Below, one piece after another: positions 3,368-60,537 of a stretch of 64,000 nucleotides of DNA (positions within the stretch are counted from its first letter, which is position 1; the number at the start of each line of letters is the position of its first letter). This stretch comes from Pirellulales bacterium (GTDB lineage: Bacteria; Planctomycetota; Planctomycetia; Pirellulales; UBA1268), in NCBI GenBank assembly GCA_018401745.1, contig JAGYJY010000015.1, positions 1 to 64,000 on the forward strand, given 5' to 3'. The notes beneath the pieces were generated by a model. It saw nothing but the letters and a program-made list of their open reading frames with translations. It did no database searches and had not been told where the DNA came from. Made by a program: the position numbers and the translations under genes.

Positions 3368-3403
3368 CCGGCCTCGCCTCTCCTGTTGGTGCTGAGCGGA
3401 TGA

Positions 3404-3600
3404 AACGGGACGGGTCCTCGGGTGCCGAAGGCACCTCGGCACCAGGCCGCTTCGCGGCGAGCCGTCCGCTGCGGATGAAACGGGACGGGTCCTCGGGTGC
3501 CGAAGGCACCTCGGCACAGCCGAGGCCGCTTCGCGGCCCGAAGACCCGTCCCGCTTGCGGCGGATGGCCTCGAGCGTTCGCCGACCCACCTCGCCTCTCC
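3404..3600. repeat. Family B cloverleaf repeats (one degenerate, one full copy) plus a fragment of family D
   Basis: A full 73-bp copy lies at 3481-3553. Its outer arms are CGGGACGGGTCCTCGGG and CCCGAAGACCCGTCCCG, enclosing three small hairpins: GGTGCC-GAA-GGCACC, CTCGGC-ACA-GCCGAG and GCCGC-TTC-GCGGC. A degenerate copy sits at about 3406-3470, and 3561-3600 resembles the start of family D in reverse. The block fills the gap between two convergent genes. Open reading frames here are by-products of the repeat. Confidence 0.8.
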
Positions 3601-6106: not shown

Positions 6107-6254
6107 ACACAGCGGAGCTGCGGCTAACACAGCGGAGCTGCGGCTAACACAGCGGAGCTGCGGCTAACACAGCGGAGCTGCGGCTAACACAGCGGAGCTG
6201 CGGCTAACACAGCGGAGCTGCGGCTAACACAGCGGAGCTGCGGCTAACACAGCG
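6107..6254. repeat. Perfect 20-bp tandem repeat, seven copies, overlapping the ferredoxin stop codon
   Basis: The unit ACACAGCGGAGCTGCGGCTA repeats with no visible mismatch, with the conserved half-unit starting at 6111, 6131, 6151, 6171, 6191, 6211 and 6231. On the minus strand each unit contains CTGTGTTAG, which is also the last two codons and stop of the ferredoxin gene. The array therefore seems to have grown from that gene's 3' end. No spacers are present, so it is not a CRISPR. Confidence 0.95.
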
Positions 6255-6516
6255 GGTCTTTCTTCTCGGTGATCACCGCACACTCGGGAGACATCTCGGC
6301 GTTGAGGGCGGTGAAATCCTTCCACTCTTCAGGAAGGTTGTCCTCATGGAAGATGGCTTCAACCGGGCATTCGGGCACGCAGGCCTCGCAGTCGATGCAC
6401 TCATCGGGATGAATGTAGACCATCTGCTCGCCCTCGTAGAAGCACTCTACGGGGCACACCACCACACAGTCCGTGTATTTGCAGGCGAAGCAGGGTTCGG
6501 CGACGACATGGGTCAT
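6244..6516 (-). CDS. fdxA: Seven-iron ferredoxin ([3Fe-4S][4Fe-4S])
   Basis: A 90-residue electron carrier. The first cluster motif is [14 protein letters not shown] (C-x2-C-x4-C-x3-CP) and the second is [12 protein letters not shown] (C-x2-C-x2-C-x3-CP). The CKYTDC and CPVECFYEG contexts match the Azotobacter FdI-type seven-iron family, in which the second cysteine is usually not a ligand of the 3Fe cluster. The C-terminal tail ([14 protein letters not shown]) is also typical. The gene stands alone and its last codons lie inside a tandem repeat. Confidence 0.92.
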
Positions 6517-6792: not shown

Positions 6793-6907
6793 GACTGTGG
6801 AGCACGTCTGCCACCGCAGGATGCGGCGACCGGCGCCCCCAAAACCTCGGCTATTTGGGGCGTCGCTTGAGTGGAAAAAGGTCATGGATGGCTTTTTCCA
6901 CGGACAG
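6793..6907 (+). repeat. Family A three-hairpin repeat, copy 1
   Basis: An intergenic copy. Hairpin 1 is CCGCA-GGA-TGCGG. Hairpin 2 is CCCCAAAA with loop CCTCGGC and arm TATTTGGGG. Hairpin 3 is GTGGAAAAAG around GTCATGGATGG and closes with CTTTTTCCAC. It ends 20 bp before the proposed sigma-factor start, so it lies in that gene's leader. Confidence 0.85.
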
Positions 6908-6927
6908 CAAAGGATCACGGTGACCTT

Positions 6928-7551: not shown

Positions 7552-7640
7552 CTGTTCAAGCGACGCCGCCCAAAGCCGAGGTTTGGGGGGGCGCCACTCG
7601 CCGCATCCTGCGGCGGCAGACTACGTCCACAGTCTGCTAC
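7552..7640 (-). repeat. Family A three-hairpin repeat, copy 2 (truncated)
   Basis: Starts at the base after the sigma-factor stop codon and runs in the opposite orientation to copy 1. Hairpin 2 (CCCAAA-GCCGAGG-TTTGGG), hairpin 1 (GCCGCA-TCC-TGCGGC) and a terminal GCAGAC...GTCTGC pair are present. Most of hairpin 3 is missing. Confidence 0.8.
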
Positions 7641-13844: not shown

Positions 13845-15171
13845 GCAGCCTCGGCTCGAGCCAGATGGTGCGGTCGAGCACATCGCCGTCGTCGGTGGGA
13901 TCCACCACGAGCTCAAGCCAGCGGGCCTGATCGAGGGTGATGGCAATCTCCAGCGGTGGCTCACCGCCGCGGAGGATGCCGCTCTCAAACACCGTGCGGG
14001 CTGTCTGCCGGCTGGCTCCTGCGCGGATGCGGATAATCACGCTTCCCCCCTGCCCTGCGGAGTCGTCGACCGCCACGGCGGCAAGCAGCCCCTCGGCGGC
14101 GAACTCCGCAGGCAGCTGGTAGGCCACGCGGGCCGTAGCATGCAGGCCGAGGCCGGTGAACACCGGTCGGCTGCGTGCGGCCAAAGGCTGGCCCGTGAGT
14201 GTGGTGCGGGTTGTGATCGGCCATGCGGGGCCAAACTGCGGCGTCTGCTCGGCGTCTGCCGGCACCATCCACGCCACAGGCATCAGGTGCTCTCCCGTGG
14301 CCAGCAGGCCCGTCACGGCGTTCTGCGGGCAGCGGATCGATGCATCAGGCTGGTGGATCAACGCCGTGGGCCGCAGCACAAAGTCGCTGGGGCCGTCGAG
14401 GCTGGCGGCCTGTGGGTCAGCAGCTGGCTGCAGGCTTTCAACGGCGAGCCTCGAGCCATCCTGGAGGCCGACGATGGCCACGGTGTGCGCTCGCGGCCCG
14501 TCGAGGCTGCCCGGGGGGGCGGCTGGAGTCGTGATCGCCTGCACGCGGTGGAGCGGGATGGCGATGCTTTTGGCTGGCTTCAGGGGGACGGAATCGCTTG
14601 AGATGGCGATGCGGACAACGGCCGATCCGGCAGCAATCTCGACCGAGTGAGCGCGAAGGATGTCGCCGTTGGTGAGCCGGATGTGGAGCCAGGGCTCAGC
14701 CAAGCCGGCAGGTACGGATCCCGACGAGGCTGCCGAGGCCTGCCAGCCCTCGACGGAGGCCAGCGGGAGCCTGACACGGCCGAGCAGCGGACTCTCGACC
14801 ACGACCTCGTCGACGTTCCAGGCCACGAGGTCGCCCGCAACGATGCTGCCGTCTTTCAGGCGAAGCGATGGCCCAATCACCGCGGCTGGGCAACGGCCCC
14901 AGGAAAGCAGGCTGTCGGCGGCAACGTGCATGAGCCCATCAGTCGACCGCCACGTGCTGCCGTCGCTCCTCAGCGAGACCACGGCAACCTGCGGCGAGCT
15001 GCCCGACCGCAACTCAAGGCGGCCCGTCCGCGGCGGGAGAGCGTTGTCGGCTGCTGCTGCCCCGCTGGCGTGGATCGCCAGCACAACCGCCAGGCCGACG
15101 AGGGCAGCCATCCCGACGGCTGCTGGCCGCAGCATGTCTGGAAAGCGGTCGCGGTGTCGGGCGGGCCTCAT
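13756..15171 (-). CDS. Exported protein with C-terminal NPCBM-like domain
   Basis: About 471 residues. An N-terminal hydrophobic segment (PAAVGMAALVGLAVVLAIHASGAAAA) serves as signal peptide or anchor. A beta-rich region follows (LRLKDGSIVAGDLVAWNVDEVVVESP...). The C-terminal part, RPVFTGLGLHATARVAYQLP, then VAVDDSAGQGGSVIIRIRAG and ARWLELVVDPTDDGDVLDRTIW, matches the NPCBM module attached to planctomycete exported proteins. It is the last gene of the MoxR operon, overlapping the upstream stop by 4 bp. Its 3' end overlaps the convergent apgM by 89 bp, so the true stop may be earlier. Confidence 0.7.
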   Translation of the reverse strand: MRPARHRDRFPDMLRPAAVGMAALVGLAVVLAIHASGAAAADNALPPRTGRLELRSGSSPQVAVVSLRSDGSTWRSTDGLMHVAADSLLSWGRCPAAVIGPSLRLKDGSIVAGDLVAWNVDEVVVESPLLGRVRLPLASVEGWQASAASSGSVPAGLAEPWLHIRLTNGDILRAHSVEIAAGSAVVRIAISSDSVPLKPAKSIAIPLHRVQAITTPAAPPGSLDGPRAHTVAIVGLQDGSRLAVESLQPAADPQAASLDGPSDFVLRPTALIHQPDASIRCPQNAVTGLLATGEHLMPVAWMVPADAEQTPQFGPAWPITTRTTLTGQPLAARSRPVFTGLGLHATARVAYQLPAEFAAEGLLAAVAVDDSAGQGGSVIIRIRAGASRQTARTVFESGILRGGEPPLEIAITLDQARWLELVVDPTDDGDVLDRTIWLEPRLLRHQTSRTVQRGPSPAASDASPETSPAPH

Positions 15172-18045
15172 GGCGACGTGCCTCGCTTCCAGCCCGGCAG
15201 GAGGCCGTTGGCCGTTGTCAGCGAGAGGATGGCGGCCGCGGTGCCATACTCGGGGCACGAGGGGTCGGGCCAAGCGCCGTCGCTCCGCTGGGTGGCGAGC
15301 AGGTCTGCGGCAGTCGCGGCATACCACCGAGCCCAGGCGTCTGGGCCCGCCTGCCAGGTTGCGGCGGAACTGGCGAGGATGCCGTAGGCCGCGTAGCCAT
15401 CGGCAGGATCGGGCGAGATCGGATGCCTGAGCAGCCAGCCGCGGCCGGCAGCAAGCACCTCGACGGCGTCGGGAGAGCTGAGGCCAATCGCAACGAGCGC
15501 TGCGGCGGTGCGGGCTGCGGCACTCGGCCCCGCGGCCGCCTGATAGCGAAAACCGCCGTCAGCGTTTTGCAGACGCCGAAGATACCCAACGGCCTGATCG
15601 ATCGTCTGGTCAGACACAGCCAACCCCGCTGCCGCAGCAGCCTCAAGTGCGACCACCATGGCGGCCGTCACGGAGATGTCGGCGTCGGCTCGTCGCGGCT
15701 GGTAGCGCCAGCCGCCTTCGTCGTTTTGCGTCTGTTCGATTAGCCGGCATGCGCGTCGCAGCGTGTCGGTGATCTCGGGGCGGGCGGCTTCACCGGAAAG
15801 TTCGGCAAGGGCCTGAACGGCAAACGCATGCCCGTACATCGGACCGTTGGCGGAGGCCTCGTTGCCAGCGATCAAGCCATCACTTCCGGCACGGCCGATG
15901 AGAAAACCGATGGCCCGCTCGCTTGCCGCGGCATGTGGGCCCGCGAGGCCGGTGCTTCCCGTTGAGGCCAGCGCCAGAAGCCCATGAGCGGTCACCGCCA
16001 CACTCCCGCTGAATCGTTGCGAACCCCAGGAGCCGTCGGGCCGCTGCGCCGAGACGAGCCAGACCACGCCCCGCTCGACGGCCGCAGATGCGTCGCCTGC
16101 ATCGGGGGCCTCTGGCTGTCCGTGGAAAAAGCCATCCATGGCCTTTTCCGACTCAAGCAACGCCCCCAAACGCCGAGGTTTTGGGGGGACGCCGGTCGCC
16201 GCATCTTGCGGCGGCAGACGTGTTCCGCCGTCTGCGAGCGGGCTCTGCGAACTGTCGTCGGTGGCGACAGCCGCGATCAGGGTGAGCGACCATGAGACCG
16301 CCGCTGCAGCGACCGCGTCGATGGCAGCGTCGCACCGGTCTGTCTGCGAGGCCTGGTTGAGGAGGCGGCGGTAGTAGCCGGGAGTCGCCGCAGGATCTCG
16401 CGCCGCAGGCGGTGAACGACGCGGCATCTCCCTGGGGCCGCTGGTTTTGGGAACCCAAACGCTTCCGTTTTGGGGAGCTGCATCGGGGGGAGAGGACACC
16501 GCAGCTGCGGAGAGTGCCGCGGCGGGGCTCGCTCTCGACTGGCCGCCCTCAGCTGCCGTGCTGGCCGTCGCGGCCGAGGATGTGACGTCGGCTCCACCGG
16601 AGGCGGCTTGTATGGCGGTTGCCACCTGCTCGCTCTCTGTGCTCGTGTCCGCAGCGGCGGTGAGCGGCGATTGGCTGGCGGGCCCTGCGGGCTCGTCGGC
16701 AGTTGCCACCGGTTGCGCGAGCACCGCGAGCCGACGACGGGCGACGGCGGCCATGGAGCCTGCTGTGGGGCCGGAGAGTGGTGGCATACCGAGTGTGGCG
16801 GTGATGGCAGACAACGCGCGGACCGCACCGCCGAGCTGCTGGCTGGCAACGAAGAGACGGTTGTCGTTGAGGGCGGCGGCCAGGTCTCCACCAGTTAGCA
16901 GGAGAAGATCGGCAGCTGGAAGCACCCCTTCGCGAACCAGCAGGCTGTGGTCAGCGGTGATGCCTGCGGCAACGGCTCTCAGGTCGTTGGCAACGCCGCT
17001 CCGCCATGATCGGCCCGGCATACCGAGTTCGTCATGGGTGAGCCCGGCCGACTCCGCAGCCGCGTCGACGAGCAGCTGCTCGGCCACCGGCAGGGAGACT
17101 GCCGCCTCCGCAAGGCCGGCAGCGGCCTCGGCGGTCTCGACAAGACGGCTCAGCTCCCCCGCAACCTCGTCGCGGCTGGCACCAGCCGCAGCTTTGGCAG
17201 CGGCTCGGCCAAGGCCGCTCGCCAGCTGCTTCAGGATGACCGCAGGCCCGCCGGCGTCGCTGGCCAGCCAGCCAGCCTCGTCGGCGTCGCGGGCCAGCCT
17301 GCCGGCCTCGTCGGCGGAGGCGGCCGCCACCTGCTGCCAGCCGTTGCGGAGCTGGACGACCCGCCAATACAGGTCAAGCGTGGCTTCGGGCAGCGTGCGG
17401 CGCACGGGGGGCTCGCCGATGGTGGCTGGATCGCCGACAGCTGGCCGATGGTGGCTCTTTGAACTGCTTGGCAATCGCATCGTGCCAGCCTGCAGGGCCC
17501 TCCACGAGCAGCCAGGCCAGGCCGGCCCAGCCAACACCGGCCACCAGCAGGCTGATGGCTGCCGCCCGCACCTCCGGCTGCTGCCGAAGCCAGCGGCGCA
17601 GCGGCAGCGAGCCCAAGGCCTGTGCTGCGTCTGCGAGGGCCGCCTCACGGAGGCTCCGCTGGAGCGATCGTGTTTGAGCAGCAGGGACCACCGCCCGTGG
17701 AGGGGCCTTCAGTCCGACTGCTCGCGAGAGCCGTTCGCCGACTTCCGGAAACCCCCGCTCAAGCTGCCGGCAGATGGCCAGTCGCGGCGGACCTGCCCGG
17801 TGGCTGCGGAGCAGGCGGCCGGTGAGCCAGCTGCTGCAGGCAGCGACGAGCAGCCCGCCGATGCCGCCCCACGCCGCAGGAATCGTCACCAGCCAGCGGT
17901 CGACGCACGCCACGACAACGACCGCTGCGGCAAGCCCGCCGGCAAAGCTGCCAAGCGTTGCGAACCCATGGGCCAGGTCGAGGCTCAGGCTCAGCCGGTC
18001 GAGGCGGCGGTTGAGCAACGAGGCGGGAGGCAGATCGCGTGTCAT
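15168..18045 (-). CDS. Membrane protein with squalene-cyclase-like alpha/alpha-toroid repeats, one frameshift; contains a family A repeat
   Basis: Roughly 958 codons when two frames are joined near 17440-17480. The N-terminus has two hydrophobic helices (FAGGLAAAVVVVACVDRWLV and a following segment) and a third near ISLLVAGVGWAGLAWLLV. An Ala-rich helical middle follows. The C-terminal third carries prenyltransferase/squalene-oxidase motifs: QRPDGSWG, QNDEGGWRY, QNADGGFRY and QRSDGAWP. A family A repeat at 16116-16235 is read in frame and adds RLPPQDAATGVPPKPRRLG and ALLESEKAMDGFFHGQ just before the toroid. The gene starts in the ATGA overlap with the GATase-like gene. Members of this operon type are thought to work at the membrane with the MoxR ATPase; the substrate is unknown. 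Confidence 0.65.
16116..16235 (-). repeat. Family A three-hairpin repeat, copy 3, inside a coding region
   Basis: All three hairpins are present (GGAAAAAG...CTTTTCC-type arm, CCCCAAA...TTTGGGG arm, GCCGCA-TCT-TGCGGC) plus the terminal GCAGAC/GTCTGC pair. Read on the coding (minus) strand it has the orientation of copy 1 and contains no stop. The host protein continues in the same frame on both sides. Confidence 0.85.
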
Positions 18046-41210: not shown

Positions 41211-41367
41211 GAAGAAAGGCCGCGGAAAGCTTTTTCCACGGACAGTTCGCAGACTGTGGAACACGTCTGCCGCCGCAGGATGCGGCGACCGGCGACCCCA
41301 AAAACCTCGGCTTTTTGGGGCTTCGCTTGAGTGGAAAAAGGCCATGGATGGCTTTTTCCACGGACAG
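41211..41367 (+). repeat. Family A three-hairpin repeat, copy 5 (full) preceded by a hairpin-3 fragment
   Basis: The full copy is 41249-41367: GCAGAC...GTCTGC pair, CCGCA-GGA-TGCGG, ACCCCAAAAA-CCTCGGC-TTTTTGGGG, and GTGGAAAAAGG...CTTTTTCCAC. A second hairpin-3-like piece with the same CCACGGACAG end lies at 41211-41245. The repeat ends directly against the stop codon of the HEAT lipoprotein gene, which occupies 41368-41370. Confidence 0.88.
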
Positions 41368-42087
41368 CTAGAACAGCTGCCGGATCGTTTCAGCCATGGT
41401 CGGCTGCGTGTCGCGGGCTTCAGGATCGGCCGCCCACGCTCGCCATGCGTTGACATCGTTGCCCAGGTCGCGGCCGCTCACCTGCCTCAACGAGTCAACC
41501 GCGCGATACTGCACCGCCGGATCGGGGTCTTCAAGAGCCCTTGCGAGCACCGCGATGGCAGCGGTGTCGCCCGTCTCGCCGAGGGCCCGAACGGCACGTA
41601 GACGGACGTCGATCTCTTCGTCGGTCTCCATGCAGCTGGCAAGCATCGCAATGGCTTCTTTGCCTCGTTTGCCACAGGCATCGCAGGCGGTCATCCGGAC
41701 CCGCGAGTCGGGGTCGCGGAGTCCGCCCTCACGGATCGCATTGGCGGCGGGGGTGTCAAAGTCTGCGGCGATCTCCAGGATCGAGCACCGCACGCGAGGA
41801 TCGTGTTCTTCCAGCAGGGTCTGGATCAGCCCCTGCGAAAACTGCACTTCAGCTGTGGTGCCAGCCTCCATGGCTTCCCGAGCTTCTTTTTTCAGGGCCG
41901 AGATCCGCTGGTCCGCGGTGTAGCCATACCGGGCAATCTGCTTCTCGGTGGACTCCGCGCTTCCCCAAGGCAGCCAGCCTGCGCAGCCAGTGGTGCTTGC
42001 CAGGATCACCACGATGCTGATCGCGTGGAGGGCCCTCGGCGTGATCGGAGTGATCGTGGTGTGCCGAAAAAGATCAGAGGCTGACAT
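41368..42087 (-). CDS. HEAT-repeat lipoprotein
   Basis: 239 residues. A membrane segment ends in a lipobox (ISIVVILASTTGCAGW). The rest consists of HEAT/PBS-lyase-like helical pairs: EEHDPRVRCSILEIAADFDT, LRDPDSRVRMTACDACGKRG, TDEEIDVRLRAVRALGETGD and LEDPDPAVQYRAVDSLRQVS. Such repeats usually bind proteins. It is probably tethered in the periplasm. The start at 42087 gives the lipobox a normal distance from the N-terminus. Confidence 0.8.
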   Translation of the reverse strand: MSASDLFRHTTITPITPRALHAISIVVILASTTGCAGWLPWGSAESTEKQIARYGYTADQRISALKKEAREAMEAGTTAEVQFSQGLIQTLLEEHDPRVRCSILEIAADFDTPAANAIREGGLRDPDSRVRMTACDACGKRGKEAIAMLASCMETDEEIDVRLRAVRALGETGDTAAIAVLARALEDPDPAVQYRAVDSLRQVSGRDLGNDVNAWRAWAADPEARDTQPTMAETIRQLF

Positions 42088-42335
42088 CGGACAGTGACCC
42101 CGCGCTGCTAGGGTGACGGGAGCAAACCTGCTCCGGCGGTTTTTTCGAGGCCGGACGGTAGCGTCTCCTGGCGGACTCGGCCAGACCAATCCAGAGGCGG
42201 CTCGGGGGCATGTCGTAGGAGCAATGCGTGGCATGAGCAAGGCAGGCGTTCCTCGCGAGAAAGCGGCTGCTCAACGCCGCCACGGCCTCCCGCTTCAGGC
42301 GGCAGCCGTGCGGCGGAACCGCCCTATTCCGGGCG

Positions 42336-47265: not shown

Positions 47266-47272
47266 GAACGCT

Positions 47273-47820
47273 CGGGCCAAGCCCGGGCTGATTCGCCGAG
47301 CGCCCGGGGGGGCCGCTCGGGGTGAGCCCGGGCTGATGAGCCGAACGTCCGGGGTCGCTCGGGGTGAGCCCAGGCCGATTCGCCGAGCGTTCGCTTCGCC
47401 ATCCTGGCTTCGCTCACTCGTGCATTCTCGCTTTCGCCCTCCGGGCTGCGCTCGACTGCAAGGCCGGCTCATTCGGCCCGGGCTCACCCCTCGCTTACGG
47501 GTTTAAGGGCGGCCTGTCCGCCGCAGGAGCGGCGGTCAGCGGTCGTCAAAAACCTTGGCTTTTTGACCGGCCGCTCTAGCCTGCGAAGGCCAGGATGGCT
47601 TCGCAGGCGTGAAGCGAGTGCGCTCGACTGCAAGGCCGGCTCATTCGGCCCGGGCTCACCCCTCGCTTAAGGTTTGAAGCGAGACGGCCTGTCCGCCGCA
47701 GGAGCGGCGGTCAGCGGCCGGGGGGCGCGCAAGCGGGACGGGTCTTCGGGTGCCGCAGGCACCTCGGCTTCGCCGAGGCCGCTTCGCGGCCCGAGGACCC
47801 GTCCCGTTCCCTCACCCTTC
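47273..47820. repeat. Composite repeat locus: family C, three-hairpin (112-bp type) unit, family B
   Basis: From left to right: three copies of the 42-bp family C unit (about 47273-47400), its conserved tail ending GGCCCGGGCTCACCCCTCGC, one 112-bp-type three-hairpin unit at 47511-47618 (with GTCAAAAA-CCTTGGC-TTTTTGAC), a second partial tail and hairpin 1 (47619-47723), and a perfect family B cloverleaf at 47734-47806. It fills the convergent gap after the ferredoxin gene. Confidence 0.85.
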
Positions 47821-50756: not shown

Positions 50757-50930
50757 CCCTGTGGGCCGCTCGGGGTGAGCCCGGGGCCGCCCCTCCGGAC
50801 GCTCGCTGCGGGCCCTCCAGGCCCTCGCTCGCTCGGAGATCCGCTTCGCTTCGGCCCTCCGGGCGTCGCTCGCTCCTCTACGCCGGAGGGTCAGCCCCGG
50901 GCTCACCCCTCGCTTACGGGTTTTAAGGAC
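50757..50930. repeat. Divergent family C-like inverted repeat
   Basis: GGGCCGCTCGGGGTGAGCCC near 50760 and GCCCCGGGCTCACCCCTCGC near 50894 are the two arms seen in family C, with a different interior rich in GCTCGCTCGG and GGCCCTCCAGG hairpins. It leads straight into the 112-bp array. Confidence 0.7.
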
Positions 50931-51306
50931 GGCCTGTCCGCCGCAGGAAGCGGCGGCCTGCGGCCGGTCAGAAACCTTGGCTTTCTGACTGGTCGCGTTA
51001 GCCTGCGAAGGCCAGGAAGGCTTCGCAGGCGTGAAGCGAGCCGGCCTGTCCGCCGCAGGAAGCGGCGGCCTGCGGCCGGTCAGAAACCTTGGCTTTCTGA
51101 CTGGTCGCGTTAGCCTGCGAAGGCCAGGAAGGCTTCGCAGGCGTGAAGCGAGCCGGCCTGTCCGCCGCAGGAAGCGGCGACCTGCGGCCGGTCAGAAACC
51201 TTGGCTTTCTGACTGGTCGCGTTAGCCTGCGAAGGTCAAGAAGGCTTCGCAGGCGTGAAGCGAGCCGGCCTGTCCGCCGCAGGAAGCGGCGGCCTGCGGC
51301 CGGTCA
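50931..51306. repeat. 112-bp tandem array of three-hairpin units (3.3 copies)
   Basis: GGCCTGTCCGCCGCAGGAAG recurs at 50931, 51043, 51155 and 51267, exactly 112 bases apart, with only a few substitutions. Each unit holds CCGC-type hairpin 1, GTCAGAAA-CCTTGGC-TTTCTGAC, and CCTGCGAAG-GCCAGGAAGG-CTTCGCAGG. The fourth copy stops after hairpin 1. As 112 is not a multiple of three, the open frames that cross it change register in each unit and are not genes. Confidence 0.93.
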
Positions 51307-51314
51307 GGGATTGA

Positions 51315-51475
51315 ACGGGACGGGTCTTCGGGTGCCGGAGGCGGATTGAACGGGACGGGTCTTCGGGTGCCGGAGGCACCTCGGCAAAGCCGAGGCCGCT
51401 TTGCGGCCCGAGGACCCGTCCCGCTTGCGCGTGTATCCGCTTTGCGGCCCGAGGACCCATCCCGCTTGCGGGTGT
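51315..51475. repeat. Family B cloverleaf repeats (one full, two partial)
   Basis: The full copy is 51351-51423, with arms CGGGACGGGTCTTCGGG and CCCGAGGACCCGTCCCG and three inner hairpins. A left-arm fragment lies at 51316-51341 and a right-arm fragment at about 51430-51456. Together with the array before it, this fills the gap before the ABC permease 3' end. Confidence 0.85.
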
Positions 51476-57706: not shown

Positions 57707-57926
57707 GCTGAACGTTCTCCGGAAATCCTCGTCGCCCGTGTCTGCAGTGGCGGGCGTCGCGTCATCGAGAATGTGAGCAAATCGTGTGCCGGGCGAGGCT
57801 GGTTCTCGCAGGCGACTGGAAAGCTGCGGTTTCGTGAGGATTCCGAGGCATGACGGCGGGCGGCACTGGCGGGGGCTGGCCGGGGGTCACCGATTTGGTG
57901 GCACGAAAATGGTGAGACAAGTGGGG

Positions 57927-58230
57927 TCGCTCGGGGTGAGCCCAGGCCGATGAGCCGAGCGTTCGGGGCCGCTCGGGGTGAGCCCAAGCCGATGAGCCGA
58001 GCGTTCGGGGCCGCTCGGGGTGAGCCCAAGCCGATTCGCCGAGCGTTCGGGGTCGCTCGGGGTGAGCCCAAGCCGATTCGCCGAGCGTTCGCTTCGCCAT
58101 CCTGGCTTCGCTCACTCGTGCATTCTCGCTTTCGCCCTCCGGGCTGCGCTCGACTGCAAGGCCGGCTCATTCGGCCCGGGCTCACCCCTCGCTTAAGGTT
58201 TTAAAGGGCGGCCTGTCCGACGCTGCGCGT
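57927..58230. repeat. Family C: four 42-bp tandem units plus conserved tail, then hairpin-1 module
   Basis: CGCTCGGGGTGAGCCCA recurs every 42 bases (57928, 57970, 58012, 58054). A conserved tail runs to the closing arm CGGCTCATTCGG, then CCCGGGCTCACCCCTCGC, which is an imperfect reverse complement of the unit's GGGTGAGCCCAAGCCGATGA arm. A GGCCTGTC-CGACGC-TGC-GCGTCG-type hairpin follows. Confidence 0.88.
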
Positions 58231-58295
58231 CGGTCTGCGGCCGGGGCGGCGGCGGAGGGGCTCGTGGGCAGCGGGGGGCGCGGGTGTTGCGCAAG

Positions 58296-58458
58296 CGGGA
58301 CGGGTCTGCGGGTGCCGCAGGCTACCTCGGCTGTGCCGAGGCCGCTGTGCGGCCCGAGGACCCGTCCCGTTCAGGCATGCGCAAGCGGGACGGGTCTGCG
58401 GGTGCCGCAGGCACCTCGGCTGTGCCGAGGCCGCTGTGCGGCCCGAGGACCCGTCCCG
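58296..58458. repeat. Two family B cloverleaf repeats
   Basis: Copies at 58296-58369 and 58386-58458, nearly identical except for one extra T in the first. Arms are CGGGACGGGTCTGCGGG and CCCGAGGACCCGTCCCG. Inner hairpins are GGTGCC-GCA-GGCACC, CTCGGC-TGT-GCCGAG and GCCGC-TGT-GCGGC. Confidence 0.9.
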
Positions 58459-58563
58459 TTCAAATCGCCTTCGCCCGCTGTTTGAGGATGGATCTGTCCG
58501 CCGCGGTCTGCGGCCACGGGCAGGCGGGGCCCGGGGAAGCGCGAGCGGGACGTGCGCTGAGGC

Positions 58564-60502
<1,939 letters not shown>

Positions 60503-60537
60503 TTCAATCACCCCCGTGAGGGCATCCCCTTCTCGTC

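Follow-up and report, generated by a model that had tools for sequence, protein, structure and literature searches.

The tandem array of 112-bp units and the dispersed repeat of ~117 bp that we term family A were found to be one repeat, in which three hairpins follow each other in fixed order. Both occur in the window, the 64,000 nt of contig JAGYJY010000015.1 (C14) that were analyzed here as a whole, from the Pirellulales bacterium MAG GCA_018401745.1 (2.88 Mb, 74% complete). The repeat is a real, covarying three-hairpin repeat that runs through the GTDB family of its host and is restricted to it. On the best reading it is a new mobile hairpin element of REP/MITE-like kind that spans the family, and we put at about two in three the probability that it is a lineage-specific, non-autonomous element of this kind, ~105-120 bp long, kept as three hairpins on one strand and mobilised in trans.

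The array (50930-51307, plus strand) has a period of 112 and contains 3.4 copies with a 98% match. Family A was represented in the host MAG by about 40 full copies and the 112-bp type by about 22 full units, with many single modules in addition. A search of the host genome with the 112-bp unit recovered family A copies, with 74% identity across 86-90 positions and E values of about 2e-6 to 1e-5, which indicates a relationship beyond shared palindromy, and the two types could be aligned through their loops and linkers. An earlier note on this DNA had proposed that they form a single structured repeat with the same order of hairpins, related loops and matching linkers around different stems. Each of these points was confirmed, and the hairpins quoted there were present in the first array unit, in the single 112-type unit and in three of the family A elements (Table 1). 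The two families are not unrelated by descent, given that relatives carry the same element together with intermediates between family A and the 112-bp type. The form seen in the 112-bp arrays is derived, having lost its left terminus and multiplied in tandem within clusters of other palindromes; in the host genome the array had no direct stop-codon linkage.

Table 1. Copies of the repeat in the window and the hairpins of the first array unit.
Feature	Coordinates	Strand	Remarks
112-bp unit 1 of array (B-type element)	50930..51041	+	
112-bp unit 2 of array	51042..51153	+	
112-bp unit 3 of array	51154..51265	+	
Partial unit ending the array (module 1, hairpin 1)	51266..51307	+	
Hairpin 1, unit 1	50939..50955	+	CGCCGC-AGGAA-GCGGCG; GGA loop near-invariant family-wide
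Hairpin 2, unit 1	50960..50996	+	GCGGCCGGTCAGAAA-CCTTGGC-TTTCTGACTGGTCGC, 15 pairs including G.T
Hairpin 3, unit 1	51001..51030	+	GCCTGCGAA-G-GCCA-GGA-TGGC-TTCGCAGGC
Single 112-type unit	47510..47618	+	different hairpin-2 stem (GTCAAAAA/TTTTTGAC)
Lone module 1	47685..47721	+	hairpin 1 only
Family A element	6793..6908	+	
Family A element	41252..41368	+	right end adjoins TAG stop of HEAT-repeat gene 41368-42240 (-)
3' end of preceding family A copy	41215..41245	+	tandem remnant, spacer TTCG
Family A element	16115..16232	-	in frame within 826-aa ORF 15168-17648 (-)
Degenerate family A element	7552..7639	-	hairpin 3 lost, both ends retained

The in-frame family A copy at 16115-16232 sits upstream of a squalene-hopene-cyclase-like domain in its ORF and adds about 39 residues, which is reminiscent of coding palindromic elements.

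Conservation within the repeat was concentrated in the loops, which were near-invariant (GGA in hairpin 1, CCTYGGC in hairpin 2 and GGCCATGGATGGCC in hairpin 3), with stems that varied on both sides. The near-invariant positions of a set of 187 copies (GGA, CCT.GGC and GGCCA.GGA in hairpins 1, 2 and 3, respectively) were likewise the loops. Both strands of both families folded far better than shuffled sequences (z -3.9 to -7.2), and the two strands folded about equally well. In a joint alignment of 45 copies from the host genome the 34 proposed pairs were formed in 92% of cells, and 17 of them had changes on both sides, in agreement with the earlier proposal of changed but still pairing stems. 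The covariation score of these 45 copies was 0.309, versus 0.146 when shuffled and 0.05-0.10 when slid, a contrast which partly represents one A-versus-B replacement counted many times, so that relatives were needed for a test of covariation.

For that test we used 187 distinct copies (mean identity 0.69) and a home-made analogue of R-scape, consisting of a G-test with APC, 150 simulations and an exponential tail fit, with a tree-based null in which each branch's inferred substitutions were re-placed at random positions. Covariation beyond phylogenetic expectation was observed: seven pairs were significant (E below 0.05), all seven of them stem pairs, and none of about 5,000 other pairs reached significance. 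A structure-blind MAFFT alignment gave four significant pairs, each at positions of the same structure, and the RNAalifold structure of this alignment included three of the four. The hairpin 3 stems of relatives included GTGGAAAAAG, GTGGACAAAG, GCATGCAGGG, GCTGCGAAG, GAGGCAGGG and others, always around GGCCATGGATGGCC or a close variant. Strand folding of a dispersed bacterial repeat can here be argued from tree-controlled covariation over many subfamilies and 12 genera, beyond palindromy, and the repeat offers a test bed for stem change under loop retention.

A search of relatives with a covariance model built here (R1) detected the repeat in 32 of the 36 genomes sampled from the host's GTDB family, and gave no match in the 161 genomes that were taken from the order's other families. 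A first R1 search at a looser threshold gave 32 genomes in 12 genera. Nearly every record with a short loop pattern was a Planctomycetota MAG, in several cases with the label Planctomycetaceae or Pirellulales, and no element was present in any of the four non-planctomycete matches to this pattern. Plasmids, phages and viral contigs, checked as carriers, gave no true match. Only a tRNA reached the gathering score in an Rfam search, in which the repeat gave sub-threshold matches, and a known Rfam family was rejected on these scores. We found no earlier description of this repeat in the literature available for searching. R1 can be used for annotating it in freshwater planctomycete MAGs.

The ends of the repeat have features of a mobile element. 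Family A copies start with NTAG-CAGRCTGTGGA and finish with CCACGGACAG-NTAG, which are imperfect inverted termini; these terminal inverted repeats (imperfect GCAGRCTGTGGA / GCTGTCCGTGGA) were observed in full copies and in internally deleted copies, and were absent from the 112-bp arrays. The internally deleted copies, 62 to about 105 bp long, retain both ends. The tetranucleotides at the ends were mainly CTAG, TTAG and CGAG. Of 128 copies, 20 had the same 4-mer on the left and right flanks, where chance would give 10.3 (p 4e-4), and the first positions of the two 4-mers agreed in 81 copies against 55. One side was usually decayed, and such agreement is what a 4-bp duplication in partial decay would leave. 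Full-length elements have a decayed, degenerate YTAG flanking repeat of ~4 bp. TTAG was common at both ends, whereas CTAA was absent among the common left tags and observed twice at the right, and by this asymmetry the target seems to be read with orientation. CTAG is strongly depleted in the host genome (177 sites in roughly 0.7 Mb of fetched stretches), and 31% of the remaining CTAGs there were stop codons of coding-like ORFs.

In copies of relatives from several genera (e.g. L189:4790-4893 and L105:1501-1604) the left terminus reads CTGTGGATAAA on the plus strand, and the minus strand there has a perfect DnaA-box-like TTATCCACA; other genera have TGTGGAAAA or TGTGGAACA.

Past mobility was shown by presence and absence between close relatives. 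The host copy L065:14961 was missing at the orthologous site of the related genome G001, and the G001 copies at C469 and C108:8199 were missing from the host genome. The empty site of L065:14961 in G001 was clean yet had no exact duplication, and the flanks of empty and filled sites were too diverged between the two genomes for an exact junction. A CTAG at the host site of the C469 copy may be an excision scar. Several other copies were shared by relatives at orthologous sites, so much of the copy set may be old and immobile.

A large portion of the family A copies (26 of 38) adjoined a coding-like stop codon at one end, compared to 1.2% of random positions and to 31% of the CTAGs in the genome. 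Genes were identified for this purpose from their ORF length and codon-position GC rather than from annotation. The abutting end was the right one in 20 cases and the left one in 6 within the host and G001, and in relatives 36 copies abutted at the right only versus 4 at the left only (p 2e-7). TAG, TAA and TGA were all represented among these stops, and the window holds one case, beside the HEAT-repeat gene (Table 1). A palindromic CTAG target would not be expected to give an orientation bias, so target choice alone cannot explain the one seen here. The repeat is a test case for whether cells tolerate hairpins placed right behind stop codons or benefit from them.

Several known systems resemble the repeat in part. 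Bacterial MITEs of the Correia, RUP and ERIC/IRU type are about 100-130 bp long and non-coding, with imperfect terminal inverted repeats and a TA-containing flanking duplication. The repeat resembles them in length, in its non-coding nature, in its termini and in the internally deleted forms that retain their ends, and possibly in its decayed flanking repeat. Unlike these MITEs it has no partner transposase family that we could find, and compared to a simple MITE its internal hairpins are more tightly kept and its orientation beside stop codons is strongly biased. Bcr1 of Bacillus (PMC2267715) is likewise a family scattered between genes, with features of a mobile element and a predicted fold that is conserved, while the repeat differs in its many stem replacements and in tree-controlled covariation over 12 genera of one family. 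With REPs and REPINs of the GTAG class it has in common short extragenic hairpins in many copies, a TAG-containing end tag, lineage-specific families, and termini that supply TAG stops to flanking ORFs, as GTAG REP termini often do (PMC3733652). However, a GTAG REP is a single palindrome of 20-40 bp with an unpaired GTAG or CGTC tag, whereas the repeat has three hairpins in fixed order with conserved loops over ~105-120 bp, its stems being exchanged from one subfamily to the next, and has a decayed 4-bp flanking repeat and no Y1/RAYT association.

These observations are best accommodated by the mobile, REP/MITE-like reading. A trans-acting enzyme, possibly not encoded in every host, would recognise the folded hairpins and their loops and insert the element at YTAG-like sites. 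The stems would drift while pairing holds, a drift we propose is tolerated because the fold and loops are what the enzyme recognises. Copies in 3'-UTR orientation would then persist, either as harmless insertions or by serving, like REPs, as 3' hairpins of mRNAs. Recognition of the folded strand and an enzyme in trans are the steps that we infer. A further version, which we put forward tentatively and consider rather doubtful, is that the identity of the element lies in fold and loops, not in sequence, and that either a host recombinase or an enzyme class with no link so far to repeats of this kind has moved it into stop-codon sites, in genomes without several common transposase families.

The candidate enzymes bear directly on whether the repeat could instead be a REP or REPIN of the GTAG class mobilised by a RAYT. 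Its TAG-containing tags at both ends and the stop codons it lends to neighbouring ORFs fit such an origin, as do two near-identical Y1/RAYT-like transposase genes in the host genome (L063 8074-8859 and 10141-10728, contig C17). However, the palindrome that flanks these genes is another one (GAAAAAGGTGTCAGGAACCTTTTTC), and they make up a REP system of their own within the host genome; Y1 was absent from seven genomes with 20 to 67 or more copies (G021, G034, G032, G001, G023, G030 and G015), and no significant R1 match was found near any fetched Y1 locus of the GTDB family. We consider this origin very improbable, and a RAYT was rejected as the main mobiliser since Y1 is missing from most high-copy genomes and Y1 loci are not flanked by the repeat. 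IS4/IS5, IS630 and IS110 were also rejected for lack of fit to copy number: among 17 genomes tested, IS110 was observed in none, IS630 only in G021, and IS4/IS5-type DDE_Tnp_1 in six, being absent from G000, G001, G003, G008, G009, G015, G021 and G034. A scan for an autonomous element with the same termini found none in the whole host genome (a MAG 74% complete) or in ~1.07 Mb of fetched sequence; everything it returned was a chance match or a copy of the repeat that was truncated or internally deleted. Incomplete MAGs or lost enzymes are possible explanations for the missing mobiliser, and the repeat is a test bed for what moves hairpin repeats without a RAYT.

The earlier note had attributed the paired stems to selection on a folded RNA or single-stranded DNA, as in REP-type elements or an uncharacterised structured RNA; the fold, its covariation and the REP/MITE-like kind were upheld, while RNA selection was not established and a RAYT-type REP was not supported. 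Were the repeat a structured 3'-UTR RNA element (an mRNA stabiliser, translation or termination signal), its minus strand would lie in the mRNA of the upstream gene straight after the stop, and RNA selection would maintain the hairpins. The abutment of right ends to TAG, TAA or TGA and the strong orientation bias agree with this, and ribosome stalling has been reported for E. coli REPs that lie within 15 nt of a stop codon (PMC12306157). Against it, fewer than half of the copies adjoin a stop, and non-Watson-Crick departures counted on the tree were nearly strand-symmetric (G.T 128 versus A.C 94 on the plus strand, p 0.027), where RNA from the upstream gene would give an excess of A.C. The wobble counts show a weak preference for the plus strand, which on internal branches only (25 versus 15) was not significant. 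A well-kept RNA is expected to give a much stronger wobble skew than this, and most copies may simply be decaying. The A/U tracts in hairpin 3 of family A are replaced in other subfamilies, so what the family conserves is not intrinsic termination, and an intrinsic terminator (GC stem with U tract) was rejected. Overall we regard a 3'-UTR RNA element as unlikely. A titrating RNA of the CsrA/Rsm type, suggested by the plus-strand GGA motifs of loops 1 and 3, is the least probable of the alternatives. RsmW was the best sub-threshold Rfam match on the plus strand of the array and the second for a single copy, but at chance level (18-22 bits versus a cut-off of 52); CsrA was encoded in 17 of 17 genomes tested, yet is equally present in genomes without the repeat and hence not discriminating; some subfamilies have ACGAT in loop 1, and the plus strand is antisense to the abutting gene.

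Covariation could also arise without selection, if quasi-palindrome template switching homogenised the arms of a DNA palindrome. RNA hairpins have been reported to arise and persist through such switching (PMC8794818), and the near strand symmetry of the mispairs is compatible with it. As a full explanation we judge it quite improbable, as loops stayed near-invariant over 12 genera while stems varied. By a second report the process also inverts the spacer (PMC8604942), yet inverted loops were observed in 0 of 181 scorable hairpins 2 and 0 of 160 scorable hairpins 1, and it leaves the orthologous insertions, the conserved linkers and the stop-codon abutment unexplained. Template switching may nevertheless be the mutational route of stem change.

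Other repeats were observed in the window. A second palindromic repeat occurs at 47727-47810, 51344-51424, 58286-58462, 60252-60335, 60423-60506 and 3396-3557, with a possible cloverleaf fold in which an outer GGGACGGGTC/GACCCGTCCC stem encloses three hairpins; its inner stems vary between copies and still pair. Tandem 42-bp units (CGCTCGGGGTGAGCCC..) at 47269-47390, 57923-58091 and 59998-60080 share their intergenic clusters with the 112-bp elements. A perfect 20-bp tandem repeat (ACACAGCGGAGCTGCGGCTA; 6107-6255, 7.4 copies, 100% identity) is located just before a minus-strand reading frame that, judged by eye, is cysteine-rich and ferredoxin-like.
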